Origin: Lineus longissimus
Taxonomy: Eukaryota > Nemertea > Pilidiophora > Heteronemertea > Lineidae
Reading direction: 5' to 3'
NCBI RefSeq assembly: GCF_910592395.1
Contig: NC_088323.1
Location: forward strand, 15,361,501 to 15,425,500
Length of the DNA: 64,000 bases
In this document: in pieces, positions 5,633-51,812 of the stretch
Layout of the letters: each line of letters starts with the position of its first letter
Position numbering within the stretch: position 1 is the first letter of the stretch
Program-made: the position numbers and the translations under genes
Notes under the pieces: model-generated
Databases searched by the model: none
The model's input: the letters and a program-made list of their open reading frames with translations, nothing else
Told to the model about the DNA's origin: nothing

Positions 5633-5838
5633 TGTTGTTCTTAATAGAGAGGTGTCCTGATTAGAGGTCAAATTGAAAGGAACTTCCAATTTTGGACGAA
5701 ACTAGTGTCCTTAATAGAGAGGATGTCCTTAATAGAGAGGATGTCCTTAATAGAGAGGGTGTCCTTAATAGAGAGGGTGTCCTTAATAGAGAGGGTGTCC
5801 TTAATAGAGAGGTGTCTGCTAAGGGAGGTTCTACTGTA
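5633..5838. mobile_element. Family A MITE derivative with internal 21-bp expansion
   Basis: The right half of the family A element ends with AGGTTCTACTGTAG at 5826-5839. The phrase TGTCCTTAATAGAGAGG is repeated in tandem about six times (5706-5810), where ordinary copies have it once. The left terminus is missing. Confidence 0.75.
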
Positions 5839-8825: not shown

Positions 8826-9310
8826 ATCCCATGTCTCTAGACCACCTTTACAAGAGATTACAATGGATTATCACCAGTATGGATCCCATGTCTCTAGACC
8901 ACCTTTACAAGAGCTCACAATGGTTTATCACCAGTATGGATCCCATGTCTCTAGACCACCTTTACAAGAGCTCACAATGGTTTATCACCAGTATGGATCC
9001 CATGTCTCTGGACCACCTTTACAAGAGCTCACAATGGTTTATCACCAGTATGGATCCCATGTCTCTAGACCACCTTTACAAGAGCTCACAATGGTTTATC
9101 ACCAGTATGGATCCCATGTCTCTAGACCACCTTTACAAGAGCTCACAATGGTTTATCACCAGTATGGATCCCATGTCTCTAGACCACCTTTACAAGAGAT
9201 CACAATGCTGTATCACCAGTACAGATCCCATGTCTGTAGACTACATTTACAGGAGCTTATAGTGGTTAATAAACAATATGGATCACATGCCTCTGGACTA
9301 CCTCTATAAA
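8826..9310 (+). repeat. 57-bp tandem repeat next to the PRDM9 stop
   Basis: Seven clear and two decayed units, starting at 8830, 8887, 8944, 9001, 9058, 9115 and 9172. Each begins CATGTCTCTAGACCACCTTT. The period is a multiple of three, so two frames stay open, but no start context or homology supports coding. It probably lies in the PRDM9 3' UTR or just beyond; a minus-strand AATAAA is at 8524-8519. Confidence 0.9.
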
Positions 9311-9382
9311 ATGGTAGCTCACAATGGTTTATCATCGGTTAGCAGTAGATCTCTAGACTACCACACCAATAATGCACCATGA

Positions 9383-12300
9383 TTACTGTTCATTCACAGT
9401 TTGCTCCACGGTGCGATGTGTCTTCATGTGCCTACTCCTCGCACAGCTGAGAGTGAATTGTTTGTCACAATGTTGACATTCGAATGGTTTCTCACCTGTG
9501 TGAATAAGAACATGTCTTTGCAGACCACCACTCCGAGTAAATCCTTTCCCACAATGTTGACATTTGAATGGTTTCTCACCTGTGTGAATAAGAACATGTT
9601 TTTGCAGATCACCACTCCAAGTAAATTCTTTTCCACAGTTTTCACATTTGAATGGTTTCTCACCTGTGTGAATTAGAATATGCTTTTGTAGATTGCTACT
9701 GTCATTAAATCCTTTCCCACAATGTTCACATTTGAATGGTTTCTCACCTGTGTGAATAAGAACATGTCCTTGCAGACTACTACTCCGAGTAAATCCTTTC
9801 CCACAATGTTGACATTTGAATGGTTTCTCACCTGTGTGAATAAGAACATGTCTTTGCAGACTACTACTCTGAGTAAATCCTTTCCCACAATGTTGACATT
9901 TGAATGGTTTCTCACCTGTGTGAATAAGAACATGTCTTTGCAGAATACCACTTTGAGTAAATCCTTTCCCACAATGTTGACATTTGAATGGTTTCTCACC
10001 TGTGTGAATAAGAACATGTCCTTGCAGATCACCACTCTGAGTAAATCCTTTCCCACACTGTTGACATTTGAATGGATTCTCACCAGTGTGAATTCGAATA
10101 TGAGTTTTGAGATGACCAATATGACTACACTCCTTGCCACATAATTTACATCTGAACCTATCACCTATTCTCTCACCATATTTCTCAAATGCGTCGGCAT
10201 CCATACCAGCATCAGCAGCTTTTAAACCACCTGTAAACATTGCAGAGCCAACATCCTTGTCACTTATGTCCGCAGCCTCTCGTAACTCAGCTACTCGAGC
10301 ACGCTGATAATGTGCATTTTTTGCATAAAGTTCTTTCATGAGATCCTTGACCTCTGTCGGGTCTGCCTCCAAATGTTTTTTGGCCACGTGGGTCATCAAC
10401 GCGTTTGGTATCTTGTAGGGTATGCTCAAGATACAGAATGGACATCTGTATTCTGGGGCTCCTGTTGAAGGGAACAAAATAAATGATACAAAAGATGCAT
10501 CTGTCCAAGCATGATATGTAAAATACCAAAGTTTTTAACTAGATGACTCTGGATAATGGAAACCTACACTTGGTCACCTAATCTTGTCCATGGTTTTTAG
10601 TGTCATCTCTAAATAGATGGCTTAGTCGGGTGTAACGTTCAAAGTGTGGTAGGAACCTCTCATTCCTGACTTGAGAAGGTGGTTCCAGAATGTGGGAAGG
10701 TATCGTTCTCCACCTCATGTGAGAATGGGTTTTGAGGGCCATGCAGCAGAACGCAAAAGCTTGAAGAGGAAAGTTTCCATCGTATGCTGAGTTATCCAGT
10801 TAAAAACTTTAATACCAAATAAATGATGCACATGACTTCTCTACTGACTTTCACGGCATTCACTTCCGGATGTCAAGGGCGACTGTCAAGTGCACAACCC
10901 ATGCACTAGGACAGTATTCCAGACAGTCTCCTCCAGCTTCAAAGAAATCTGACCAGAAGGTTGAGCTCCACAGCCCCAAAACTTTGAAGACTATGCATAA
11001 CGAATGAACCATAATGATTGGAACTCTGACAACTACAGGCCAAGAGCCTAAAATGAGAAAGTCACAATCTCTTATTTTTCAAAGAACTATCACTCAGTGA
11101 GCTGAAATTACGTGACCTTACCTGTGTCAGACATAGTGAATGCCTTTTCATGTGTCCTCAATCTAACCTCCTTTGTAGCTTCTATACCCAGTTCTTTGGC
11201 ATAACCTTCACCATAAAACACCAACAACTCCTGGAGGAACACAATACATTATAATGCCCACTAATCTCCTTTGCACAAGGTTGTGCCATGGTTAAAATGA
11301 CATACATGTATATTTCATTATTTTTCACCGGTTTTCACAAAACGAGTGTTGAGGTGATGGCAAGCCAAATATCAATACAGTCAATATGTTGGTCCCTAAT
11401 ACATTTCTCAAAGGCTGCAAAATTGCGATTTCATTGGTGTCTTTGACAAGTATGGTTGGCAGGGCAGTTTTCTCTGCTCATCAAGATTTATAAGGGGAAG
11501 TATTTTTAGCACCATGTGAGCGGGAGGAGTAAAATTGAATCTCGGCACAGTTGCAACACCAGCATAACCTTCTAAGTTTCTATACAGGGCCAATGGACTG
11601 TGCCACTAAAGATGTCATGATGTCTCAGAGCTTCATTCACTGTGTTGGGTTGACATAGCATTGACTCACCTGTCCTGGGTAGACAATCTGTATAGTCTTA
11701 TAGTAGATCTCGCCTTTATATTGAAATGCCAACAAGTTCTGTTCTCCTTCATTTCTGGAATAATATAACATTTTTATTGCTTGTAATGAATGCAATCTAA
11801 TTCGTCAAATTACTTGTTGGTTTGCAATCAATTCAGATATGGGGTTCTCTCGGCTTTTACCCTGTTATCTCAAGCTTTTGAGAATGAATGGGCTTCTGCA
11901 GGTGGACTCTTCATACAAAGGATGTCAGTACATCCTGCACTTTGATGAGTTTGAATCATCAGGAATAGGTACCACCACTGGACTGAAGACAAGTCCATGA
12001 CGTCCTTAGGCTCTCGACGAGTATTACAGAATACTTGCCTTGCACAGTTGGTGTAGCGCAGCCAATTTGACTTAGCTGGGTCTCTTGCATCAACATAGTG
12101 ATGGGGTTTAGTATCCTTATAGATCTGAATTGGTAAGAATAGGTTGTGGTATCACTGACAGCTCAGCTATGGAATTGGCATCTCTACGTGCCGAGAGGAT
12201 CCAAGCTACTCAAGTAATTATTTTGCTTGGTGGGATCTTAGCTTGTCGCCAGCAAAGTGCCTCTTAATGGTTGCGTACCTTGCTTAAAGACTCAAATGTG

Positions 12301-15300
12301 AAACTGTGGTGATCTTTCTGGGAGTGGAACCACCAACCTACAGACCGTGAGCCTGATATTCTTACCACTACCACTTGTCTCACTTAAATTTTCTGTCTCA
12401 TTTGAAGGATGTGGATAATTAGTGCATGGGGAAGGTGACTTGCTCAAGGACAAGGATCCTTTTTGAGAGATGAATCCACAACCTCCAGTATAATTAGCCC
12501 GCCCCCTGGACTGACTATGCCAATGCCCAGTGATGTCTCTTGCGCCAGACCAGTATTTCCATTCATAACATGCGGCACATCATACCTGCCATGAATATCC
12601 CGAATCCTGTGCCACATCCATATTGTAGACCATTTCGCCTTTGTAAGGTCCGAAGCGAACACCCTCAGGGAAGGCCATGTTTGATATCACACCGAGTCCA
12701 GCACCTGGGATCTTAGACTCCTCAACCACCAGGCCATCAGGGGTGGTATGTCTTGCATGGTTTGGGTCAGGTCTCTTTGACTTTGTTGGAGGAACCTGAA
12801 TGAGAAAATGTTTTTTTCAAATCATAAGCGTCAGGCAAAGCAAAAAATATGATTGAGGATAGCGTGAGTCCCTCAATTTATCACATATCAGTCAAACACT
12901 GGGTAACACTGCAAATGTTGTTATCAGATTCAAAATAAAGCCCATCGTTTGGTCAGTTGCCCCCTTGTGGAGGTGCATGAAATTCATAACCATGAAGTTT
13001 GAGAAGAGACTGAAATTCCTGTTAAAGCTTGCATGTTCATTGTAGTTGTTGAAACTCACTTCTCAGGCACAATATTTAGAGCCCCTCCACTTAGCTGTGC
13101 GGACTGTGGATACTTTTTGAAGAGCCTGAAAGATCTTTTGGCGCAGGATCAGCAAGTAAACCTACTTGTTAACCTGGTGCACGCAAGTCACCAAAAATTG
13201 GCTCAAACAATTTGGCATGTCGGAGTTGGCTGGGAAATGTGCACTAAAGGCCAACTGGCGAACTCCGATGGACAGCCAACAAGAAAAAAACCTGGGGCCG
13301 TCTGACCAAAAGAGACCTGGCAACATACGGTAGAGAAGGAGAATAACATTATATAGCAGATTGGTGCAAAGAGGATGAAGTACTTTGCACTTTGGATGTG
13401 CTAGCCTCAATCACTCTGGTTAAGCAGACATCATAACATCTTATTTAAAGTACATACCTCCTTATCCTTGATGATTGTCAACGGACCATGAACTGGACAA
13501 TCTCCAGGATATTCCTTCTGACAATCTTCACAAACTGAAAGAGAAACAATCTACTGTCACACAATCACCAGAGACCAAAAGAGAAGTTTGTACAGTTCAG
13601 GGCATTGCACATTTCCATAGGCCTATCCAGCAGAATTCTCCACAGGCTTTTCTCAAGATTGAGGGTGGTATCCTTGATGTTCAGGAAGTTTTGCCAGTGT
13701 ACAACAAAAGGTAGGGTGGCCAGCAATTTAAGGTCGGGTGGCCCTGTAGAAACATTTTACAAATTCTAGAGCAAGGTAAGGGCGCTGCTTTCAAGGTAGG
13801 TTGGGACGCCCTGACAAATGGCTTTGTGGAGAACACTGCCCAGGGTACTGCGTCATTTATCTCTCTACACATGGAGACTTAAAATGAGTAAACATGTTCA
13901 TTTCTTGAACCTGAAGACCGCTAATCCTCACAAAATGCAGCCAATTATAAATCAATGCCAGGCATGTAGTAGTTCTCTCCTAGTTTATTGCTAAATAACA
14001 GTTACCTTTGGAAGATGGGCTAAGGAAGTCAACCTTAGGATTTAGATCTTAGAAGCACCTGACTGTGTCCCGTTAAATAGCATTCATTAAAATGTTACAA
14101 GTACCAAGTTCTTACATAAGAAAATGTCCTCGTCTGGAACCTCCAGTTCTCTGTAGTTCTTTCTCTCCAGACTCCTCTTGGGGTAACGAGCTGGTCCAGT
14201 GGCTGCAGCAACCTTACGCTTCTTTCTGGTTGGTTCTTCTTGGGGAGGAGCTAAATGGGTGAGAATTAACACTATTTTAACAAAAATGAAACTTTAGATA
14301 CACAAACACACTTAGGAAATGGAATAATCGCTTGCAAGAGAACAGATAGTTATTGTAAGAATGTCACAACCTTGTCAACGTAGAAAACTCTTTGAACTTG
14401 CAACATCACTAAAAACTCTCAAAGCCATAGGACAAGGAGAACAAATATGTGACCCAGCACAACAAAATGAGTCGCATGTCGCACAGAAGATGAGCCTAAA
14501 TTGACACCAGGAGATAATAGAAGCATTTGATGTACTCAGGTGTCACAAAAGGCAGACAACAGTGAAATGAACAACCAGTCTGTCTCAGCCTGTCAAGCTC
14601 AGAGCAACATGCGACTTGTTCTGTCATGGCGAGTCACATATACCATAACCAAAGGCCTAGAAATGTCCACAGCACAGAAGACCCTTCCAAAATTCTATTT
14701 TACCAAGAGGCCACCAACATGATGACATAATTACTCTTCTTTGACAATGACTTGTACATGACTATAACCCATAGCTTGGACCACCATATGGATTCTTCTT
14801 TGACTTTGTCACTTGCTAAAGCAAACTTGTACCCTGTCTCAAAAATGGCAACGCCTATGTTATTGTAAAATAGCAAACTTCTTCACCTGCTGCCCTCATG
14901 ATCATGTTTTTCAAGGCCAATTCTGCTGGGGGACGTGAAACGGTAGCAGGACATTCCTTGGCAGATTTCTTTGCTCCTTTGGGTTTGCTTGTGTTCTCAG
15001 CTGTGGTTTTCTGCAAGTGCAAGTGTGTTTAACAAAGAATAAACACCAATCTTGACCACTGACATAAGTTCTTTCAAGATCACAGATCGATATGTGGTGA
15101 GGTAATGAGAAGCAGGATGAGTGACCCAACTAGATATGGCGATCCTTGATTAAATTTTTTTAACCAAAGGAGTTTGTTGAGTCTTACTTGAGGGGAAGCC
15201 TAAATGAAAATTTCGATTAATCTAATTTAAAGATTGAAATAACAGCTAATACTTACGTCCACTTCTTTCACTTTTTTCTTTACAAATATTGGTTTCTTTG

Positions 15301-17193
15301 GTGGCACAAACTTGAATGGAGCTGGTGGCACTAGAATGCAAGTTCTTATATACAGCGGTTTATAAAGTAAAATTTTCTCAAAGGGCTTTCCATTTATTCC
15401 CAATCTTAACTGAAACCTTTCAGTAGAACTCAGATGAGCTGCTCAATCAGCGCTACATCCTGAGCATATCCGACTGGCCTGGTTGGAGTTAGGCCTGTTA
15501 GGCAAAGACACCTGCCTAAAGTCTCACGCCGCCAGTGAGGATCGAACCAGGGACCTCTAGAATGCTCATCAGAGACCTGAGCCACTAGACCACCGTGGCA
15601 CGAGAATTTAAATTATATTTTACTTTAGATTTGTCCAAGGCCAATAGAGGCACAATGGCGAACGATTTCATTTTGGTTAAATTTTAACCAAAATATCATT
15701 TCATGGAAACTGTTCACAAGTTGACAACCAAGCAGAGATAAGATAGAGGGACAATATAAAGACTTACTGGGCCAAGGGGGAATACTGGACACGTCACTAT
15801 CAGCATGGCATTGTTGCTCATTGAGCCCACCCCAACTACTCCAGCCCCCCCCCCCCCCACTCCCCCCTCCTCATAGCAAGGGTATGGGGCATCACTATCA
15901 GGACTGTTTCTGCCAAAAAGGCAGAGAAGAGCGCTGCCAAAGCCTAAACAGAGTGCTGCATACTGCTTAAAACTCCTTAGCTGCAAAACTCTTACTGACT
16001 GACAGCTTATGACATGTTATGAGTGGCTTGCAGAATTCAAAATCCTACTGCAAAAGGCTATTTGAAAAGAAGGCCACAGATGTATCCTTTATCTATAATA
16101 TGGCAGCCTCTCATTTACAAAACTTACATTTTTCTTTTTCTTTTTTCCTGGCCAAAGAAGGAGTCCAATCCTCTTCCTCACTGTCACTGTCCACTGGCAT
16201 CATAACTCTCACCTTCCTTCGTGGACCACTCATGAACTCAGGTTTGGAAACAGGTAGACCTATGAAGGAAATACTTGACTTTATATGCACAGTGGAACGT
16301 CCCTCGAGGAGCTTTCTTATCAATTTTAAAATCACACCCCTTCTATGGACACCGTATCTGATCCAACATTGATGGAAATGACCTGTGTAATCAGGACAAC
16401 TCTCAAGTCAAGGAGTAGGACAGCATTTGTCTGTCCCAAGAATACCCTGAATAAAGTTGTAAAAATGGTCTTTTGACCCTTTTGTTTGTGTTTTTGCAAC
16501 TCGGACAACCTTACAAGGCTAATTTAGGCCCCCGAAAATCCATAATTTGGAAAACTGGCACGGAATTTGCCTAAACGGATTTTGAGATGTTTCTTGGGAG
16601 CATTTATTCACGGAATTTTGCAAAATCGAAAAATGGAAAAAGGTTTTTCAAATGAAATGTCCTGGGGACATTGTGCTCACATGGACAACAAAAAACCAAC
16701 TTATCAATGTTGAAATTAAATTTCCTTTGCCTTCATGCATATTGGTCCTACCAGTTGAGTCCTAATTCATCCTTCTTGTTTCTAGTTACAGTAGAACCTC
16801 TCTTAGGGGACACCTCTCTATTAAGGACAACCTCTCTATTAGGACATCGGTTTTGGTCCCAAACTGGTTATTTTCATTCAATTGAACTCTATAATCAGGA
16901 CAACTCTCTATTAAGGACAGCACTTGTCAGTCCGAAGGGTGTCCTTAATAGAGAGGTTCTACTGTACTAGTAGTAAAACTCCTCTTTACAAATATTTTTT
17001 TTCTCTCACGTGTCAAGATTCACCTACCAAAATACATCATTGTGAGGTAATTCCTGACCATGTTCTTGTAACGGAGCTTCTCATAATCTCCAATTGTGGC
17101 CAGTTCTTCCTTACTGAAATACTGGTCCACATCAATCTCCTCCAGGGGTGGGACCTCAATATCCATATTTGGGGTGAAACTTTCGTAATTCAT
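9383..17193 (-). CDS. PRDM9: PRDM9 (Meisetz-like) histone methyltransferase with KRAB, SSXRD, PR/SET and zinc-finger array
   Basis: Eleven coding exons on the minus strand: 17193-17028, 16259-16128, 15330-15257, 15010-14887, 14250-14116, 13534-13458, 12795-12586, 12124-12039, 11754-11670, 11230-11122, 10461-9383. They join in frame to 758 aa. Residues 20-56 are a KRAB-like box (YFSKEELATIGDYEKLRYKN). Residues 56-99 resemble SSXRD (FGLPVSKPEF, acidic DSDSEEEDWTP). A zinc knuckle follows (C212, C215, C223, H226). PR/SET spans about 237-385, with IPGAGLGV, FGPYKGE, NWLRYTNCAR (326-335) and ELLVFYGEGY (364-373). A SET-proximal C2H2 finger starts at C406, and nine tandem fingers begin near 502. 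In vertebrates PRDM9 trimethylates H3K4 and H3K36 at sites bound by its fingers and so places meiotic recombination hotspots. The start is the first in-frame Met (MNYESF). An upstream stop follows the longer open frame, so a 5' exon is possible. Intron 8 has a GC donor. Orthology is certain at domain level; meiotic function here is inferred. Confidence 0.95.
9416..10156 (-). repeat. 84-bp coding minisatellite: nine-finger C2H2 array of PRDM9
   Basis: Nine consecutive 28-residue fingers lie in the terminal PRDM9 exon, linked by TGEKPF or TGENPF. Fingers 2-8 share the same framework (C-x2-C-GKxF, S at helix +1, L at +4, Q at +5, H-V/I-LIH). They differ almost only at helix positions -1, +2, +3 and +6. 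The -1/+3/+6 residues by finger are: H/H/T, Q/D/G, Q/I/R, Q/S/R, R/S/G, D/N/K, W/D/K, R/G/R, L/A/R. Finger 1 has Cys in place of the framework Phe. Finger 9 lacks the +4 Leu, so both ends look degenerate. The 84-bp period leaves long open frames on both strands, which are shadows and not genes. Confidence 0.95.
11755..12038 (-). other. GC-AG intron (PRDM9 intron 8)
   Basis: The exon ending NWLRYTNCA plus AG at 12039 is followed on the minus strand by AAG|GCAAGT, a strong U1-complementary site with GC instead of GT. The acceptor TTCCAG ends at 11755. The joined codon AG+A gives Arg and the frame continues as NEGEQNLLAFQY, the expected PR/SET sequence. No GT donor nearby keeps both frame and homology. 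Confidence 0.85.
13681..13835 (+). repeat. Dispersed repeat shared with 55.03-55.19 kb (inverted)
   Basis: GTTTTGCCAGTGTACAACAA, AAGGTAGGGTGGCCAGCAAT and GGTCGGGTGGCCCTGTAGAA match the inverse of 55030-55190. It lies in PRDM9 intron 5. Confidence 0.7.
15415..15604 (-). mobile_element. tRNA-derived SINE in PRDM9 intron 2
   Basis: The minus strand has A box TGGTCTAGTGG and B box GGTTCGATCC. The tail contains CCAGTCGGATATGCTCAGG. A related tail is at 56864-56960, which keeps GAGCATATCTGACTGG and GTTGAACCAGGGAC. The family is unassigned. Confidence 0.6.
16787..16966. mobile_element. 181-bp MITE, family A (copy in PRDM9 intron 1)
   Basis: Starts TACAGTAGAACCTCTC and ends with the inverse, GAGAGGTTCTACTGTA. 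The interior repeats phrases such as TCTCTATTAAGGACA and GGTCCCAAACTGGTTA. Length and termini match two other complete copies in the window. No coding capacity. Confidence 0.85.
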
Positions 17194-18157
17194 AATGAGA
17201 TCTTCTTCTTGCCATGGAATTGAAACAGAAATTTATTATTTGTCAAAAAGATTAAAATTAATAAAAATTTCACAGGGGCAGTGTCCGACTCCGACCGAGG
17301 ATATCAATTTGCAACATTTGAAAAATGTCCAAGAATCATCGAATTTAACGAATGAGGAACACTGCTCAGGATTCATCAGACCAGTCTCGCAAGACATTGA
17401 GCATTTTTCCTTCTTCTACAGCAGGCAGGCGTCGGCATGGCAGTGAGCAGCATGCCGTTGGCAGAGCTCAATTCATATTTCATTATCCGCAGACCACAGC
17501 CCTTTCGTTGGCACAGCTGGCTAGCTCTGCTCATAACTGAATGGTTGAATGGGGGCTGGAGACAGGCTTTGCCAGCTGATGAGTGATGTACCTCCTTGCC
17601 CTTCCCAATCCCATGTGACCCACGCCCATTGTCAGTGGGATGGGTCTACTGCCACCCTACCCAACCCACTGCCAAAAACTGGCACAGTCAGAGAGTGGGA
17701 GACAGCCACACGCCCTGCCCCCTTGTCATTGACCCCCCTCCCCTACAAGTACACTGTACAACCTTCATTGTCCATCACTCAGCACTGCATCGGCTTTGCT
17801 TTGAACGACTACCGGTATAAATAGGCCTGATCCGGGGGGGGGGGGGGGTCACAAGTGCTTTCGGTCATCATCAAGTACCACAGATCCGCCCGAAGTGAGA
17901 GCAGTCTCCATTGTTCGAGCGCTTGGAAGTTTTTTGAGCGGGCATTTTGATTTTGAATGATTTTTTCAATGTCAAACGCTCAACAAGTATACTCAAAAAT
18001 CTAAGTAATACTACGTAAATAGACAAAAAAAGTTCATTCAGGTGATGCTTGAATATATCAATTAAATAGTCTACCCAATTTCTAAAATTCTATTCGATTC
18101 CAAATGGCCGATGTTGATAGATTTTCTTCAGCAACAAAATGATAAATCGGATCCGCC

Positions 18158-20228
18158 ATTTGCAGGGAGCAGACGCCGCGCACCTGCGGGTGTGTCGAAA
18201 ACACAGCCTTGGACAGGTAACCGGGACGGCGCCGTTTCCCGCCAAAATACGGGTTGGACGTGGTGAAAGTGCTTTGATATTCTTAAATATTATGTGTTGC
18301 TGAAACTGTGTGATAGAGTTTGAACCCTGCATAGGATTCGTAACACACCCCCTTTTGGAAAAAAGTCGTTCATTGACCAAGAAAATTGCTTTAGGATTGC
18401 AAAATTCACAAGAAACCCCCTTGCCTTTTTTTGAGAGCGATACGCCTTTGAGAACGCAAGGCGAAACGTTGTGTGGACTGCAAAAGTCACTCTGAGTTAA
18501 CCCCATAGAACCATTGAACTTTATTAGACGCACTCTGAAAATATGCCACTAAAGGACCTTATATCATCTCTACCGTGTTATGACAACAAGTTCTATCTTT
18601 CCTGACTGGTTGTGACAACAAGTTCTATCTTCCCTGACTGGTTGTGACAACAAGTTCTATCTTTCCTGACTGGTTGTGACAACAAGTTCTATCTTTCCTG
18701 ACTGGTTGTGACAACAAGTTATATCTTCCCTGACTGGTTGTGACAACAAGTTCTATCTTTCCTGACTGGTTGTGACGAAATGTTTCATCCACTCTAACTG
18801 GTTGTGACAAAAGGATTTGCAGGGAGCAGACGCCGCGCACCTGCGGGTGTGTCGAAAACACAGCCTTGGACAGGTAACCGGGACGGCGCCGTTTCCCGCC
18901 AAAATACGGGTTGGACGTGGTGAAAGTGCTTTGATATTCTTAAATATTATGTGTTGCTGAAACTGTGTGATAGAGTTTGAACCCTGCATAGGATTCGTAA
19001 CACACCCCCTTTTGGAAAAAAGTCGTTCATTGACCAAGAAAATTGCTTTAGGATTGCAAAATTCACAAGAAACCCCCTTGCCTTTTTTTGAGAGCGATAC
19101 GCCTTTGAGAACGCAAGGCGAAACGTTGTGTGGACTGCAAAAGTCACTCTGAGTTAACCCCATAGAACCATTGAACTTTATTAGACGCACTCTGAAAATA
19201 TGCCACTAAAGGACCTTATATCATCTCTACCGTGTTATGACAACAAGTTCTATCTTTCCTGACTGGTTGTGACAACAAGTTCTATCTTCCCTGACTGGTT
19301 GTGACAACAAGTTCTATCTTTCCTGACTGGTTGTGACAACAAGTTCTATCTTTCCTGACTGGTTGTGACAACAAGTTATATCTTCCCTGACTGGTTGTGA
19401 CAACAAGTTCTATCTTTCCTGACTGGTTGTGACGAAATGTTTCATCCACTCTAACTGGTTGTGACAAAAGGATTTGCAGGGAGCAGACGCCGCGCACCTG
19501 CGGGTGTGTCGAAAACACAGCCTTGGACAGGTAACCGGGACGGCGCCGTTTCCCGCCAAAATACGGGTTGGACGTGGTGAAAGTGCTTTGATATTCTTAA
19601 ATATTATGTGTTGCTGAAACTGTGTGATAGAGTTTGAACCCTGCATAGGATTCGTAACACACCCCCTTTTGGAAAAAAGTCGTTCATTGACCAAGAAAAT
19701 TGCTTTAGGATTGCAAAATTCACAAGAAACCCCCTTGCCTTTTTTTGAGAGCGATACGCCTTTGAGAACGCAAGGCGAAACGTTGTGTGGACTGCAAAAG
19801 TCACTCTGAGTTAACCCCATAGAACCATTGAACTTTATTAGACGCACTCTGAAAATATGCCACTAAAGGACCTTATATCATCTCTACCGTGTTATGACAA
19901 CAAGTTCTATCTTTCCTGACTGGTTGTGACAACAAGTTCTATCTTCCCTGACTGGTTGTGACAACAAGTTCTATCTTTCCTGACTGGTTGTGACAACAAG
20001 TTCTATCTTTCCTGACTGGTTGTGACAACAAGTTATATCTTCCCTGACTGGTTGTGACAACAAGTTCTATCTTTCCTGACTGGTTGTGACAACAAGTTCT
20101 ATCTTCCCTGACTGGTTGTGACAACAAGTTCTATCTTCCCTGACTGGTTGTGACAACAAGTTCTATCTTTCCTGACTGGTTGTTACGAAATGTTTCATCC
20201 ACTCTAACTGGTTGTGACAAAAGGATTA
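18158..20228. repeat. 657-bp tandem triplication, each unit ending in a 32-bp minisatellite
   Basis: Units start near 18158, 18815 and 19472 and are practically identical. Open frames at 18310, 18967 and 19624 are the same sequence, exactly 657 bp apart. Each unit has a CpG-rich part (GCAGACGCCGCGCACCTGCG) and a 32-bp minisatellite (TTGTGACAACAAGTTCTATC...). The last minisatellite array is longer, to 20228. The block lies about 1 kb upstream of PRDM9 exon 1. Confidence 0.95.
18235..18247. promoter_or_regulatory. E2F-type site TTTCCCGCCAAAA (triplicated)
   Basis: An exact E2F-like palindromic site is in each 657-bp unit (18235-18247, 18892-18904, 19549-19561). It sits in the CpG-rich part, about 1-2.4 kb upstream of the first PRDM9 coding exon. 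Activity is inferred from sequence only. Confidence 0.5.
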
Positions 20229-21268
20229 TCCTCTCTAGCTAGTTATACCAGCATGTTATGTCCTCTCGTACTGGTTGTGGCAACATGGTCTCTGATGGTG
20301 ACAGTCTCTGACCACAAATTACGTGTTGACCTGACTGAGGTCAATCATATCCCTCAAAATAAGACTGTCCGTACCCAATCTCAGCCCTAATGCATTGCCG
20401 TGTCAAACATTAGTTGTAATGAAATAATTCAACGTATGTTACTTTATAAAACATTTCTTGGACTTTATTCACACTCACCAATTATACGTTTTATAAACGA
20501 ATATGGATAATCATTTGCAACAACAGGAACGAGATTTAAGAATTTAAAAATTCAAACTCAGCTTGTTACATGTACATTGTTGGGTTTCAATATCATGATT
20601 TATGGATAATTCACAAGACAAGGTCAAGACAAGACTATTTTTCACTTGCTAAATCACTCAATATGCAATTCTTAAATGTCAATAAAAAACATGGCGCCTA
20701 AGTGTATATTTGAACTAAAGATGCGCATTGTCTTTCAGTTGGACGCTTAGTATTTCATGCACTAACTGAAGACCGGGACAGGGCCGAGTTTGCAGTACTC
20801 CTGCGTCGTCAGTCTAAAGTGAACTACACTTATCAATGGTTATTTTCCCTTGCTCAATAGAATTCTATTGTGTATCCACTGTGTGAGGGGAAATATTTCT
20901 GGGCCACCCTGTAGAAGTGATCTCTGTCGTCATGCTAACCAAATCACAATCACCTATTCAAAACATCATTTCGGAATAGCAAGTACCAGAAAAAGAGGGC
21001 CCTGCCTCATGGTCAATGTCAACGACCAATGTGTGTCGTCACCGAGGTTGAAGTTTGCTGACCGCATCAGAAAAACCGTCGGTAAAAAACCGCCGCAGCT
21101 GTACTTTTCTGGCTGAAGAGCGTGCCACTCCCCGGTCATTTTTAATGCAGTGGTCGTGCGGGGAAAGAGAAAAACCAACCAACCTTTCACGAATTTTCAA
21201 TTCTCACTCCTATCCATCAGAAAAAGAAACAAAAGTCACAATGACCCTAGCCATTTCACTGAAATTTC

Positions 21269-30200: not shown

Positions 30201-33200
30201 CCTGTAAACTGTGGAAGAGAAAAGCAGATTGCCATATACCATAATCTTGTGAATACAATGTACTTTCATCTATCGAGGCATCGTACGTATTTCAATAAGT
30301 TATGAATCAGTCACTGGAAAAACCAACTCACAAGGGCAAATCCTACGTTTCGCCAGTTTCCACACTGGCATCATCAGGTCAAACTGCACTGTTCGACGGA
30401 ATTCTCGTAGAATCTCGTGATAAGACTGGAGGGATGTTCTTGACGGTTCTGTCCCAGGCATGTGATAGGTTGAAAAGTAGTCCTCCGTGGCGGTGGAGGG
30501 AAGGGACTCCAGTCTCTAGTAGATGGCTTCCTTGGACACTCTCTAAAACCAACGTTCCATGTAAGTTAGTTTTTCCAGTGACTGATTCATAACTGATTGA
30601 AATATATACCATAATCTACACCGATTCACCAGTCATTCGGCCAGTGAGTCATGTTACTGTCTTCCCATTTAAGTCTTGATAAGATGCAAAAAACTTGGTG
30701 GTCAAGATGCTGTCTTTTTCATGAAATGCCCAGAAGCAGAGTACTACAGGCAGTTGCCCAATGCTCATTGATATCTTCGAGACGAATTAGCAGGCCTGCG
30801 ACTGTTACAGGATGATGCATCATGATGAGGAGCTAAAGAATTAGAATCAACCAAGAAGATCGTTATAAGGACACTGACTGGAAAGATTCGTTCGCAAGGA
30901 TCTTTTAATTCACGGAGTGGCTTTACACTCCGGACGCAGTGGACTGGCCTCGTCCATTCCCTATGAAAGAATTACACCCAGGATGACAAATGAACAGCCT
31001 CAGGAGATTAAAGTAGCTTGGGAGTTGACTGGACCTGGTAACCTCGTCCCTCCAGCTAGTTCTGTCCCAGAGACGAGGTTTGCAGGACATACAGAACTTT
31101 TAAAACAGAGTATCAATTTGAGCCCTACCTCGATGCATTAAAAAATCGTGGGGTCTTTTCCAAAATGGCTAAGTTTCGCCTTAGCAATCACAACCTACTC
31201 ATCGAAAAAAGGTAGACATTTTGGTACTCAGTTGGAAAAGCGTCTGTGTCCATTTGGGTGTGACGAAGTAGAAGACGAATTTCATTTTTTTGCTAGATGT
31301 CCTTCTATTCAAAAACTAAGAGATGAGTATTTTAAGAATATTGCTTTTTGTAAAGATAGTCACTTGTTCTCCAATTCGGATTTTATTTCCACATTGAGCA
31401 ACACTGATCACGACATCATCATCAAGACTGCTATTTTTATCTCCAGGGCTTTTTACGAAAGGCAAGCAGCTCTTCAGGAGCAATGACAATATAGTTTTAC
31501 CAATATGACTTATGATATGTTTTAATGTAATGTCTTTTATTGTGTAATATTCATGCATATATATGCCATACTGTCTGTACTTGTGATAGTTGTGCAAATA
31601 AATAATTTGAATTTGAAAATTTGAATTTGCTGATATAAGGGGCAACGTGCATGGCCACTTACTGTCTATATTGTGACAGGTGTAAATCATGGCCTTTTTA
31701 TATCCCTCTAGGTGAATGAGTCTGAGATGCGGTGACTCCACTTCTTGACGGCAGTAACGGATCGCCACCTTCATGCACTCCATGGCACCGGGAATGTTGG
31801 CCGAGCTGAAGAAACAACAACAAGAGATGTTAGATACGCTAATAAAGCTGCGCTTACACCACGAAATATTGGTGGACCAATTGCACGTACACCACCACAT
31901 TGCCGCGACAAATTGGTTCGGCAATCCATTGCCGATACAAATTGCCGGGCGAATTTGTCCCACCAAGCTTGATGGTCCAAATTCGCCCGGCTTGTTAAAA
32001 GCTCGGCTTTGTCGTGGTGTACGCGCAAATGGATCGGCAATTAGCTAGTTAGATGGTTCGGCTCCAGGCGGCGTTTTCGAATTTATTGTTTGCGCGCCAT
32101 CTGTAGCCGGATTTTATAACTAGCTGCAGCGCTGGTGTAAGCGCTTGGTGGATTTTCGATGGTGCGGCATTGGTTCGCGAACCAAGATTGGTGGTCCATT
32201 TTCAGGTGGTGTACGTGCGGAGTCAATAATGCACTAATTCCAGATTTTCTTGATTGCGTCATCTGCTGTTAGCATAAACAACGGCGGGTATTAAAAAATG
32301 GCAATCTAATGTAATGACCACCTTTGCACCTCTTGTAAGAACATATTGCCAAGTCACAGGACTCTATTGTGTTAAGAGACAAGCGAGACCCTTGAAACAA
32401 CCTCTCTTCAATCTGTGTATTAATATAGTTAAGCTGGTTGGTTACTGCATAGATTGCCCGATTCCTTAAAATTATGCTTTCCATTGGAGACTGAATTAGG
32501 TGTGTGACCTTGCCGATTCAAGCTCTGCTCTGCGGCCGAACTGAGCGAACACTGATATGCTTATTTTGTGGTGATAATCATTGAGTTGAAGAATGACCCC
32601 TCTAACTTCTCTCTGTATTCATACACCTGTTTAGCTTCTCTGTCAATATTAACTCTAACAGTAACCACAGGTTTGCCAAACTCCTTTACTACTTCAATTC
32701 CTTCCACTTTCTTTATGCCATCAAGCTCCCAGGTCTCAAAGGCAAGCTTCTTATCTACACCTTTAGGGATTAGTAGTGGAAGAGGAGGTTGTACTTGTAC
32801 CCCTAACTTACTCATCTGTTTATCTAAATGCCCCTTAGTCTTCCTGTGGGCTGCCATATTGCTGTATGAGACGTATTTATCACGAGAAGGACAGTGTACC
32901 TTTTGGTTTCTATCACTCATATTATCAGTCATTATTTTGATCAAAAAGATTTATTAAATTTCACTCATTCCAGTTATGGCATTCCAGTTATGTTACTTCT
33001 TACAGTCTAGTCTGTACAGTCTGTAAAGGTTGTAGTAATAGGATAATGGGTGCTAGATTATTCGGTTTTTGTATTGGGATTAAGGCAACTTTAATGGGAA
33101 AACACTTGTGTTTTCCCCCTTGATTCTGGTCCTTTCCCTACACAGAATCGTAGATATTCGTAGATCGCATTATCCTATTACATCTACTTTCTAGCTCTAA

Positions 33201-39659: not shown

Positions 39660-40215
39660 AGAAAGCAAACTTTGAGCCGCCTGCTAAACTGGTTCCGGTG
39701 TAGAAGAAGAAATTGTCCCCCTGCATCTCTTAATCACGTTCCTAGCTTTTCTCTGCCCCTTAAGGTACACTTTTCTTCTCTGGAATTAGCGGCTCCGTTG
39801 TAGGAGGTGTCAGCAACCACCTTTTTAAAATATAACCAGAATTCCCCAACAACCAGCCATTCGGTGGATTACGTTCAAATACTTTGCCAAGAGCAGAGCT
39901 ATGCAGTACGAAGGCATCATGTGATCCTCAAGGATATCTTGCAAAACATTGATGCTGTTGAAACCTTTCCGGTTGACATAAACGTGCTCAGTTATGGACA
40001 GTTTCTTAATCTTACAGTGCGTTCCATCGACAGCAGCAATCACTCGTGGGAATCCTGTTATCTCGAAAAGCTTTGTCTTTACCTTTTGCAAATTGTTGTC
40101 GAAGAATACATGTTCGTCAATGCGGGCGGAGAGTGCAATAGACACCGCACGAATGCATCTCCCAGCCGTTGGGATAATTATGTGGTCAATGTCACCAACT
40201 GATGACTGAGTGTTA
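39660..40215 (-). pseudogene. Decayed PIF/Harbinger (HARBI1-type) transposase fragment
   Basis: The minus-strand frame 40145-39825 reads FPRVIAAVDGTHCKIKK and EHVYVNRKGFNSINV, the DDE-domain hallmark of HARBI1-type transposases (DGTH, YxNRKGxxSINV). Downstream, in shifted frames, it continues as [17 protein letters not shown] and KARNVIKRCRG, the conserved end of the domain. Frameshifts, an internal deletion after INV and an in-frame stop show it is inactive. Confidence 0.8.
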
Positions 40216-40221
40216 CCATCA

Positions 40222-40400
40222 AGGAATTAATACCGAGCTGGCGGTCATTGGTTGTATAATCAAGACCGCTCGGGTAGACCGAAAATGCAGTCCAAAACCC
40301 GAGGCGCTTCGCCAAGGGTTTTGGACGTAATTTGAGGTCTACCCGAGCGGTCTTGATTATATAACCAATGACCGACAGCGAGGTATTAATTTCTATTCTA
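40222..40400. mobile_element. Foldback hairpin MITE with ~75-bp arms
   Basis: TTAATACCGAGCTGGCGGTC to GGGTAGACC (40227-40283) is inverted at 40344-40390 (GGTCTACCCGAGCGGTCTTG, ACCAATGACCG, GGTATTAA). The short loop contains GTCCAAAACCCGAGGCG and its inverse. Related half-copies continue at 40755-40810. It abuts the Harbinger fragment and may be its non-autonomous relative. Confidence 0.75.
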
Positions 40401-47072: not shown

Positions 47073-50000
47073 ATGGCAAGCAATATGTGTCGTCCGTTAG
47101 TGACGCTTTTGATCGTTTTACTGGGTCTCTTTTCGAAGGTAAACATTTAGGCCTACCTACGTTTTGAAACAGGAAGTGTTGCGCAAAATAACAAGCCGTG
47201 CGGCGACGCCTGTTCATTATTTGCTTTTGGTGGTGGGGGTCAATTCAGTCACAGGGAAGATGGTTTTGCAAAGGCTAATGCTGCTAAGTGTGCATGGTAG
47301 CCTAACTACAGAATAGCCGCGACAGTAGTGGCTCTGTACATTATGTACACTCTGTCCCTCTGTACATTATGTACACATTCCTATCATTTACTAGCACCGG
47401 TCATCCTAAAAATTGCGACCAGTGGCATCCAACGCGAAATAATAGGGTGTATATGGTTAGAAATGTTTTCAAGCTCCTAAAACACTTTCAATAAACAAGA
47501 TTTAGAAGTTTAGTAGAGTTTGCAAACCTAGTTTTTTATTAATCATCCATCATCTCCATGTGCCAACCTGAATCCTGATGCCAGGTCCCGATTCCGCTTT
47601 TTCTATAAACCCAAGGAACGCCAGTTAAAGGGAACTGGAATCGCCAAGCGATTTATTCAACTTTTCGACTTTCACCGCCCGAGAAAGTCAAACTTCCAAC
47701 TTCCTATTCGAGTTCAGATTTGTAGCTCCGCCCCCAGTGCCCGAGCATGCGCAGTTCAATTTGTTATTATTGAGAATCATGTGAGAATCACGTGAGTCAT
47801 GCGATCTTTCATTCATGAATTTTCGTAGTAAATTCCCTAGTAGTGATGTCACTGAATGATTGACAGCTAGGCGCCATGTTTCATTCATGCCTCGTTCTGA
47901 TCACTCGATATGCGGGAAATGAAAACGAGGTCATACGAACTGGCTTGGCGGTTCCAGTTCCCTTTAAGTTTAAAACAAACATGGGGTCCAGTCCTTTTGC
48001 TGGACGCATACTAAGATCGTTTTCTGGAGATGATTATTCAAAAACTAGGTTTGCAAACTCCACCAAACTTCTAAATCTTGTTTTTTGAAAGTGTTTTAGG
48101 AGCTTGAAAACATTTTTAACCATATACACCCTATTGTTTCGCGTTGGACACCACTGGTCGCCACTGGACGAAAAATAAGATGACCCTTTAGCACAGAGTG
48201 TCCCGGGTATTCTGCAGTTGCTCCATTCATGGTTCCCAGTCATAGGCCGACAGGGAAAGTGCTAATGATCCTCAAAGTAAAGTTGCAGGGGGGCCGAGGG
48301 AGGGGGGCGATGCCGCTGAACTGAACTAGTTCTTGTTGATATTCGACGGGCCTCCTGCTGGAGTTTTGTGGCTGACTGGGTTGTTCCAGAGCTCTGTTCT
48401 TGAGTGAAAGCCTGTGCCTAATGACATGACAAAATCTAGTATCAAAAGGGCGTGTAGTGTATGTTGAAATTCCTCGGCGAGGCGTATTGGCATAATAGAA
48501 ACTTCACACACGCCCATATAAGGCTTTATTTATGCTAGCAAACGCGCATGTTTGTCTCAAAATAGGCCGGAACAATGCCTCGGCTGAACAAAAGATGGCC
48601 AGGAGACATACCCAAAAGCCAGAACTTGGTGGGGTCTTGATTGATATTTTTATATCCCCTCAGGCCTTGAAAAGGTACTGAACGCGAGACGTGGTGCCAT
48701 CTGCAGGGCTCTATCTAACAAAAGTTCACTACCTCAGCTGGATGGGTATAGCTGTCATTGGCCATTTGTGTAAGCAGCTTTCAGGAAAAAAAAGTTTATC
48801 TCACACTCACATGATTTTTAGTCGAGTTTTCACATGTCTCCTTTCTTCGTTTTAGACCTATGCAGAAATTTGCGACAGCGGGATCGTCTGTCAGAGCTGT
48901 TGTCTAGATGGCGACTCCTGTTGCTATGACGACGACGATGATGATTATTACTATACTTGGAACATCTGGAATATGTGGTATTTCTGGTGAGTAAATTATA
49001 GGCTAGTTCTTGGAGGCGGCAAGAGGCACTTTTGTTATATAGCAATGCATTATGGGCAAAAGCTAAGTCGAAAAAATGCTGAGGTGAGGGGTCCTCCTTG
49101 GACACCCCAATATGATATTTGATTAGGTTACTAAAAAATGAATGCAATAGAAATTCTTTCTCTCCTGTTTTTCTGCATAATTAACAAGTAGGAACATGAA
49201 ATTTTTAATTCCTTTTTATTGATTGGCAATAGTCCAGCCGGCTTTAACTAAGTTAACTTTATTGTTTGGGATCCTTTACCCCAGGGTCTCTGACAAAGCG
49301 TGTGACAGGTACGTCTTGCTACGGGTACAAATCAGGCCTCTTAATTACATGATTCCTACACCATATAGCCGTACAGGATGTCCCCAAATTAGGTCTATTT
49401 TTTTAAATTTTTTTTTGATAATACCCCCTGAAGCGTTTTTTGACCCCTAACATAACCAAATCTCATCCAAATGGCCTAATTTTATAGTTTTACCCTAAGC
49501 TAAAATTATGATTTTTCAGGTGTATGTGGTGATATCAGTCACTAACTTTGATCTATGACGTCGCTGTTCATGCAAATTGGCCCGATGAAATGTCCCCAAA
49601 TTAAGCTAAAAAGCAAAAAAACATGTCCCCCAAAATAGGCTAAAAAAATACAGGGTGTAGAGGTCTCCACGTAATTGAAAGGCCTGCAAATTGAGATAAA
49701 ACCAGTTTTTGTTGCATTTTAGATGCAGACTTGTGTTTTCCAGATGTCATTCACACATAGATACCTAAAAATTGCATCCTTGAGGCTGATGAATAATTCA
49801 TTGTCCACAATAATTTCAGTTTCTGGCACCACTACTGGGTGACATAAATGTCGATTCTAGACATTTGTGATGAAAATCAACTGCAAAATACATGTATAGG
49901 TCCAAATCGTTGTCATATTTGATTTCTTTCGTACGTAAACGACGTCATCATATGTGGGGCCGGTAAAAGCGCTCACTTTTGCTCCTTACAAAACCGATTG

Positions 50001-51812
50001 CTGCTTTGATAACTGGTAATTTTAATCTTGCACTTTTCAGGTTTATCATAATTTTTGTTCTTCTATCCTGCTTCGGGGGATGTGGCTACTGGCGCCGCCG
50101 TCGAATCCTGCTCCAACAACGTAACTCGGCCGCGACAAGTGTGACCATCCAACCTGGTGTCCCTGTGACAGCTGGTGCTCAACCTGGTCCCTATTTCCAA
50201 GGGGGTTACACTAACACCTCGTACGGTACTCCTGGCGTGCCACAAAATATCGCCCAACCTCCAGCAATGTATAATGGTCCGCCAGCTTATACTGAGGTGA
50301 GTGAATTATCACATACAGTGGAACCTCCCTTTACGGACACCTCTCTATTAGGGACAACCTGTCTATTAAGGGCACTAGTATTGGTCCCATATTGGTCATT
50401 TCCATTCAATATGACCTCTCTAATCAGGACACCTCAATATTAAGGACAGTGCTGTCCGTCCCGAGGGTGTCCTTAATAGAGAGGTTCTACTGTACTTTGA
50501 TCGCCTCTCAATTTGCATTTCAAATTAAGAAATACTGTATCAATGCAGGTTAAGAAGTGTCTGTTACTTGTAGGCCTAATACAGGTACATGTATATTAAT
50601 TCTTTTTACTGGCACCTCTCAACAACTAACTAAATGGCAATGACATAGAATCCTGGTTAAAAATAAAAATCAAATAAACGTGACAGATAAAATGTGAGAG
50701 ATGATCAACTGACTTTTTTCCTGTGCCAAAATATTGCCACATTAAAGAGATGGCCCACTAGATAACCTGATCGAGTGGTGAATCGTGCCACGCCAAGTAT
50801 AATGACATTGTCCGTGTTTGAGGCCGTACATTCTCCAAGCAGACCGTAGGAATTAGGATATTCTCTCGCCAGTCCTGACTTCCATTACTGTGTGAGGTCA
50901 AAAATGTGGCACCAGTGCATAATGATATCTGATTAACAGTTCAATAGCAAGCGATCAGTCACACAAAACTCACAGAAAACACACGTATTTAACCCTGGAC
51001 ACGAAAGATTAATAGGTCTATTGTTTTTCTGATTGCGTCGGTGTGTATTGGCTAATTCGAAGCTGGAGCTGATCAGTTGCTACGATTCTGCTATCTTCAC
51101 ACACCTGTGATCTTCTCCACAAATCGTGATGCAGCGTATCCCTAGCACAGTCTTGTGTTGACGGCCTTGTAATGACGTAGTCACTTGACTCGGCAGGGGA
51201 GTCTACCGGCCATGTTGACGAAAGTGACAACACACGGCATAAAATATGATAGGCTCCTCTGCATTCGCAGTGGCGGGACCAAAGCTATGGAATGAGCTTC
51301 CAAATAGTGTTCGTGGCCAGAGTACCCTGGGTCGTTTTAAAACTGCACTAAAAAACTCATATTTTTAAGAAATTCTTTTGAATCCTTTGCAGGTTTTCTT
51401 TAGTAATGACTGTTATTCTATCATGTATTAATGTTATGTTTTATTATAAATTGTAAAGCGCTTAGAAGTTTTAACAACGTTAAGCGCTATAAAAATGTTT
51501 TTAATAATAATAATAATAACATCTAAATACTAAACGATACTTTTGAAACGTTACTTGCAGGTGATCTCCAAACCCGACCAATATCCCCAGCCTCCTAAAA
51601 CACATCCCGATGGTCAAATGAGAGCTCCCTACCCCACGCAACCCGGATTTGCTGCTATGCCGTATCAAACCGGACCAGATGGTGGTGCTGCTAGGCCACC
51701 GCCGTACGTCGCTGCGCCGTCAAGCCAGACTCCAGGAGAGGCTGCGCCGTATCCTACACAAGGACAAGCGCCGTATCCCCAGCAGAATTCAACTCCTTAC
51801 CCACAACAGTAA
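47073..51812 (+). CDS. VOPP1/WBP1-like single-pass membrane protein with PPxY motifs
   Basis: Four exons, 47073-47138, 48856-48986, 50041-50296 and 51561-51812, join in frame to 234 aa. Residues 1-25 are a signal peptide ending TYA. Residues 28-45 are a short Cys-rich ectodomain (C28, C34, C37, C38, C44, C45), followed by six Asp and a Tyr/Trp-rich stretch. The membrane span is about 64-83 (YFWFIIIFVLLSCFGG), stopped by RRRR. The cytoplasmic tail is rich in Pro, Gln and Tyr, with PPAY (146-149) and PPPY (197-200), which are WW-domain ligands. This order is that of the VOPP1/WBP1/WBP1L group, whose members bind WW-domain proteins such as NEDD4-type E3 ligases and localise to vesicles. Shisa-type proteins have a similar plan and are the alternative. 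Assignment to one paralogue is not possible. Confidence 0.82.
47391..48195. mobile_element. ~800-bp non-autonomous DNA transposon with long TIRs in VOPP1-like intron 1
   Basis: The left arm 47391-47655 is inverted at 47935-48195. Examples are TTCAAGCTCCTAAAACACTT, CAACGCGAAATAATAGGGTG and GGGAACTGGAATCGCCAAGC with their inverses at the right. The centre (47660-47930) is unique and has no transposase frame. Confidence 0.8.
50314..50494. mobile_element. 181-bp MITE, family A (copy in VOPP1-like intron 3)
   Basis: TACAGTGGAACC at the left and GGTTCTACTGTA at the right form terminal inverted repeats. The same interior order as the copy at 16787 is kept, and the element sits just after the exon 3 donor. 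Confidence 0.85.
51245..51535 (+). mobile_element. 3' end of a LINE (CR1/L2-like tail) in VOPP1-like intron 3
   Basis: The short open stretch 51252-51368 reads AFAVAGPKLWNELPNSVRG and ends in LGRFKTALKNSYF-stop, the typical C-terminus of CR1/L2-type reverse transcriptase ORFs. It is followed by TAAAGCGCTTAGAAGT, GCGCTATAAAAATG and an (AAT)n tail at 51503-51520. Only the last ~40 codons are present. Confidence 0.75.

Follow-up and report, generated by a model that had tools for sequence, protein, structure and literature searches.

A well-preserved PRDM9 gene with a turned-over zinc-finger array in Lineus longissimus, and its possible part in placing meiotic breaks

The stretch of Lineus longissimus DNA analysed here (64,000 nucleotides of contig NC_088323.1; hereafter the window, to which all positions refer) contains a PRDM9 gene on its minus strand, 17193..9383. 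The gene model has 11 exons joined by 10 in-frame junctions, with 0 internal stops. Its coding sequence of 2277 nt, including the stop, gives a 758-residue protein in which a KRAB-like region, a zinc knuckle, a PR/SET domain, a post-SET finger and 9 tandem C2H2 fingers follow one another in that order. Splice sites were picked by eye from the sequence and the exons joined by script, a single splice form being modelled. Exon 1 begins with an in-frame ATG, and the introns, 246-797 bases long, comprise 9 of the GT-AG type and 1, intron 8, of the GC-AG type (AG/GCAAGT, window position 12038). This rebuilt model matches the coordinates, strand, 11 exons and in-frame junctions given for the gene in an earlier note on this DNA. 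An old pseudogene was considered and rejected on the open frame and the intact splice sites. The parts of the gene are as follows.

17028..17193, minus strand: exon 1, with the start ATG and the first part of a KRAB-like (ancestral type) domain (gene model; alignment to human PRDM9)
16128..16259, minus strand: exon 2, with the end of the KRAB region and an acidic EEDWTP motif (EEWTP in human PRDM9) (gene model; alignment)
15257..15330, minus strand: exon 3, a basic, proline-rich linker (gene model)
14887..15010, minus strand: exon 4, linker (gene model)
14116..14250, minus strand: exon 5, a basic stretch and a weak SSXRD-like segment (knuckle-anchored alignment)
13458..13534, minus strand: exon 6, CCCH zinc knuckle with C212, C215, C223 and H226 (PF18445; residues aligned to human)
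12586..12795, minus strand: exon 7, first part of PR/SET with Y287 (human Y276) (gene model, Pfam, structure match, alignment)
12039..12124, minus strand: exon 8, second part of PR/SET, followed by the GC-AG intron (gene model, structure match)
11670..11754, minus strand: exon 9, third part of PR/SET with Y353 (human Y341) (gene model, alignment)
11122..11230, minus strand: exon 10, end of PR/SET with Y369 (human Y357), and post-SET (gene model, alignment)
9383..10461, minus strand: exon 11, post-SET finger, linker, nine-finger array and stop in a single exon (gene model)
10373..10444, minus strand: isolated post-SET finger, residues 406-429 (aligned to human PRDM9 chain 4ijd)
9401..10156, minus strand: nine tandem 28-residue C2H2 fingers (gene model; nine PF00096 stretches)
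9485..10072, minus strand: fingers 2-8, homogenised 84-bp repeats with pairwise DNA identity of 82-98% (repeat comparison, Tandem Repeats Finder)

Residues 1-436 of the protein match 16 distinct solved-structure sequences (E 0.001), and the top three are PRDM9 chains: 4c1q (163 bits), which we take to be mouse PRDM9, and 4ijd (161.6 bits) and 6nm4 (158 bits), presumably both human PRDM9. PRDM11 (103.5 bits) is the best match after PRDM9, followed by PRDM14 (89 bits). A Pfam scan of the whole protein at E 1, of which the best 25 of 26 matched families were seen, places the PR domain at residues 259-379 (121 residues; PF21549, 142 bits) and finds nine C2H2 stretches (PF00096). Against PF18445 (cut-off 25.8) the zinc knuckle scores 28.8 bits as an isolated piece and falls to 24.5 bits, below the cut-off, in a scan of the whole protein; C212, C215, C223 and H226 are presumably its zinc ligands. 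Over knuckle and PR/SET together, 77/167 residues (46%) are identical to human PRDM9, and the human sequence used for comparison carries tyrosine at the published positions 276, 341 and 357. Y276, Y341 and Y357 are named as the catalytic residues of human PRDM9 (PMC5519329), and all three are kept here, as Y287, Y353 and Y369.

Further towards the N-terminus, the first 92 residues align with human PRDM9 residues 1-100 at a score of 159 (28/68 identical, EEWTP motif included), which 0/10,000 shuffles reached (best shuffle 62). Pfam returned no KRAB match at E 10 from two pieces of 99 and 101 residues spanning the KRAB and SSXRD regions, the piece scan from which absence of either domain is judged. 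Pfam is able to detect the human form of both domains, since residues 1-230 of human PRDM9, run as a positive control, gave 31.5 bits for KRAB and 60.2 bits for SSXRD. Exon 1 alone drew only chance matches from the PDB (3 at E <=10, best E 0.26), and the prokaryote library NCBIfam gave 0 matches. On the strength of the alignment, the N-terminal region is read as homologous to the ancestral KRAB of PRDM9. SSXRD detection is considered unreliable because of the short length of the domain, and a complete PRDM9 has been defined by KRAB plus SET (PMC8892340). Under that definition the gene counts as complete by alignment, and not by the Pfam KRAB model.

It is very improbable that the locus is instead another PRDM gene (PRDM11, PRDM14 or other) or a chance join of unrelated exons. 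The best Pfam PR model is the PRDM2 one, and the silence of Pfam on KRAB and SSXRD would suit either alternative, but the PRDM9 structures score ahead of PRDM11 by ~60 bits and of PRDM2 by ~88, the gap in the solved-structure search on which another member of the family was rejected. The KRAB region and EEWTP motif also align with PRDM9, and the ten junctions, all in frame and with GT-AG ends in nine cases and GC-AG in one, argue against a chance join. On its sequence the locus is assigned to PRDM9, as an orthologue of the single PRDM9/PRDM11 ancestor. The assignment proposed in the earlier note holds, with a PR/SET domain nearest PRDM9 (158-163 bits against 103.5 for PRDM11), a KRAB recognised by alignment and 3 catalytic tyrosines.

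The array consists of nine 28-residue C2H2 fingers in one exon, with one separate post-SET finger before it. Tandem Repeats Finder reports a repeat of period 84 at 9466-10093 with 90% matches. Fingers 2-8 are pairwise 82-98% identical in DNA, and fingers 1 and 9, at the two edges, have diverged. The contact quadruplets of all nine fingers differ from one another. Following the formula of PMC5519329, P was calculated as the share of array amino-acid diversity that falls at contact positions -1, 2, 3 and 6. For fingers 2-8, P is 0.621; of the 20,475 four-position sets, none but the contact set reaches 62%, which makes it the most diverse. The ratio of non-synonymous to synonymous differences (pN/pS) in these fingers is 1.21 at contacts against 0.44 elsewhere; restricted to fingers 2-5 and 8, it rises to 2.36 at contacts, and the other positions show 0 synonymous differences. 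In Table 1 of PMC5519329, P spans 0.331-1.0 among those complete orthologues that have a value, 0.158-0.331 among SET-only genes and 0.224-0.524 among the few genes with just one of KRAB and SSXRD. The core-finger value lies well inside the range of complete genes. By these measures the core fingers 2-8 carry the within-array signature of recombination-directing PRDM9s.

PRDM9 chooses where chromosomes recombine in mammals and salmon. We think it somewhat probable that the gene described here is an intact PRDM9 whose array directs meiotic breaks to DNA motifs. In germ cells entering meiosis, the array would bind specific DNA motifs, and the PR/SET domain would deposit trimethylation of histone H3 at lysine 4 and lysine 36 (H3K4me3 and H3K36me3) on nucleosomes nearby. 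With partners recruited by the KRAB region, double-strand breaks would form at the bound and marked sites. Erosion of the motifs, together with unequal exchange within the array, would then drive finger turnover. Hotspot direction by this PRDM9 is plausible, and whatever goes beyond the sequence in this scheme is inferred. Where break hotspots lie in rainbow trout varies with the genotype of full-length Prdm9, and PRDM9 target motifs erode in salmonids (PMC11703093). A mouse model that lacks KRAB has its recombination focused on promoter-like features (PMC8892340).

Several observations weigh against this reading, the first of which concern the SSXRD. Pfam found no SSXRD match at E 10 in the two N-terminal pieces, and the score of a free local alignment was reached by 638/10,000 shuffles, or by 4,236/10,000 in a second form, neither being significant. 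Anchored on the knuckle, which sets the register (first seen in an earlier alignment of the two proteins), 7/31 residues are identical and 170/100,000 shuffles reach the score, a weak support; for the last 23 residues 60/100,000 shuffles are as good, and shifting the register by up to 6 residues in either direction never gives a positive score. The segment is weakly identified as SSXRD-like, not as an established SSXRD, and is the weakest of the gene's parts. Extending P beyond the core fingers lowers it to 0.436 (fingers 1-8), 0.397 (fingers 2-9) and 0.339 (all nine). The all-nine count is nearest the rule of PMC5519329, and its 0.339 stands just above the top of the SET-only genes, which puts the array near the bottom of the range for complete genes. 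Nor is P alone a proof, because a KRAB-less bat gene reaches 0.524 (PMC5519329). Synonymous differences cluster at contact codons too, with pS of 0.36 there and 0.08 elsewhere in fingers 2-8, and tree-based tests are undermined where fingers exchange sequence by gene conversion (PMC5519329); for both reasons positive selection is not claimed as proven. Beyond this gene, neither finger signature was found in tunicates and C. elegans has lost the fingers, so that the signature is not general outside vertebrates (PMC2779102). Two statements of the earlier note are narrowed by these results. Its full architecture stands for the KRAB-like region (by alignment), the knuckle, PR/SET and the array, with the SSXRD-like segment weakly supported, and its active-looking array stands for the core fingers (0.621), all nine together being only marginally above SET-only genes (0.339).

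Some of the same evidence suits an orthologue of PRDM9 with no role in directing recombination, which in germ cells or early embryos would instead methylate histones or regulate transcription, its array reflecting minisatellite turnover without selection for new targets. We regard this as a serious possibility, short of being the probable one. Partial vertebrate PRDM9 orthologues are under constraint yet apparently do not direct recombination (PMC8892340), and in the clam Mulinia lateralis prdm9 expression is high in the blastula, in a passage that covers embryos and larvae only (PMC10451705), a point that also tells against a recombination role here. The low all-nine P and the synonymous clustering at contact codons fit it as well. 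Against it, the gene retains the three tyrosines and, by alignment, KRAB; in fingers 2-8 the contact positions are more diverse than any other four-position set; and among vertebrates the presence of a KRAB-bearing PRDM9 near-perfectly matches rapidly evolving arrays (PMC8892340). It is unlikely, though less so than a mistaken family assignment, that the gene is a recent or relict copy (a young pseudogene or paralogue) with the working PRDM9 elsewhere in the genome. Paralogues of PRDM9 occur commonly, salmonids (PMC11703093) and cattle (PMC5519329) being examples, but the model has 0 frameshifts or stops and intact splice sites, and a tblastn search of the 64-kb window at E 0.1 found no second copy, its matches being the gene's own exons only.

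The surroundings of the gene are rich in repeats. A 57-bp minisatellite (8.8 copies, 90% matches; 8826-9334) begins ~50 bases past the PRDM9 stop, and two frames on the plus strand, 166 and 164 codons long, are open through most of it. Some 0.9-3 kb upstream of the PRDM9 start, a 657-bp unit is present in three tandem copies (18090-20244), with 300-base stretches that are 100% identical and a 32-bp minisatellite array after each copy; the triplication is either a very recent duplication or an assembly effect. The 17-mer CCTCTCTATTAAGGACA occurs 23 times at <=2 mismatches between 2519 and 63171 (0 in 100 shuffles), in both orientations, with sites at, for example, 5706-5812, 16813-16956 and 50340-50484, one tandem array, and three copies in PRDM9 intron 1. 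It perhaps represents a short inverted-repeat transposon family. In intron 2, the minus strand of 15440-15600 resembles by eye a short interspersed element derived from a transfer RNA (tRNA), with GGTCTAGTGGCTCAGG and GGTTCGATCC; ARAGORN, run with the bacterial code, found no tRNA in the window, and no Rfam family reached its gathering score there. Elsewhere, a minus-strand frame at 39825-40226 containing IAAVDGTHCKIKK resembles a Harbinger-type transposase by eye, with no Pfam match, and a 114-codon plus-strand frame at 31142-31486 (CPFGCDEVEDEFHFFARCPSIQKLRDEYF) looks, judged by eye, like the tail of a reverse transcriptase from a long interspersed element. The plus-strand frame at 49967-50440 encodes a hydrophobic segment and, after it, a part rich in proline and tyrosine, and is possibly an exon of a neighbouring gene; it has a sub-threshold match to WBP-1 (E 0.076, 14.1 bits, cut-off 28.1). 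That match was all that Pfam gave for neighbouring genes among the 10/27 open frames of >=130 codons that were scanned.

Compared with known genes, the Lineus PRDM9 shares with those of vertebrates (human, mouse, salmonid alpha) the order of KRAB, linker, knuckle, PR/SET, post-SET finger and array, the array in one terminal exon, the three tyrosines and the 84-bp finger repeats. A single-exon array of 84-bp fingers has been described for vertebrate PRDM9 (PMC6116924). It differs in sequence, at 46% identity over knuckle and PR/SET to the human protein, and in its KRAB and SSXRD, which Pfam sees in human and which here fall below detection. Its PR/SET domain lies on four exons, whereas three are named for salmonids (PMC11703093). 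With the Prdm9 genes of Nematostella, Lottia and Capitella, compared by description only, it shares concerted finger evolution, although Lottia and Capitella have 23 and 11 fingers against nine here (PMC2779102). The PRDM9 of Mulinia lateralis, likewise compared by description, has 710 residues, one 121-residue PR domain and ten fingers in the paper's table; the gene here has 758 residues, a 121-residue PR match and ten fingers (one post-SET and nine in the array). It differs in that the word KRAB is absent from the main text on the Mulinia gene (PMC10451705).

PRDM9 relatives outside vertebrates, of which the earlier note was aware, are borne out by two studies. Oliver et al. (2009) reported that the fingers of Prdm9 evolve in concert in Nematostella, Lottia and Capitella, and found positive selection on positions -1, 3 and 6 of the Nematostella fingers and on a single codon in those of Capitella. 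They also described a male-gonad expressed sequence tag for Lottia Prdm9, and a KRAB-SET-finger architecture conserved in many, though not all, Prdm9 proteins (PMC2779102). Full-length homologues have since been reported in 2026 from diverse clades including cnidarians and sponges (PMC13186367). The novelty that had been claimed for completeness together with an active-looking array finds no support, as finger turnover was already in the first of these papers and full-length genes are in the second. The gene is a further well-preserved example of an already known type of PRDM9. The literature searched, which left many subscription papers and all preprints outside its coverage, yielded no functional test of whether PRDM9 acts in recombination in any animal outside vertebrates; in the text available, a coral paper has nothing on coral PRDM9, an amphioxus crossover paper is without PRDM9 analysis, and a teleost aKRAB paper contained none of the six terms looked for.

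We put forward tentatively, as a claim a little short of probable, that a full invertebrate PRDM9 such as this one may actively direct meiotic breaks to motif-defined hotspots, which would make the PRDM9 Red Queen general to animals. So far that dynamic has been shown in vertebrates only. This sequenced species, whose PRDM9 is intact, keeps its catalytic residues and has an array that has turned over, offers a concrete place in which to test PRDM9 function.

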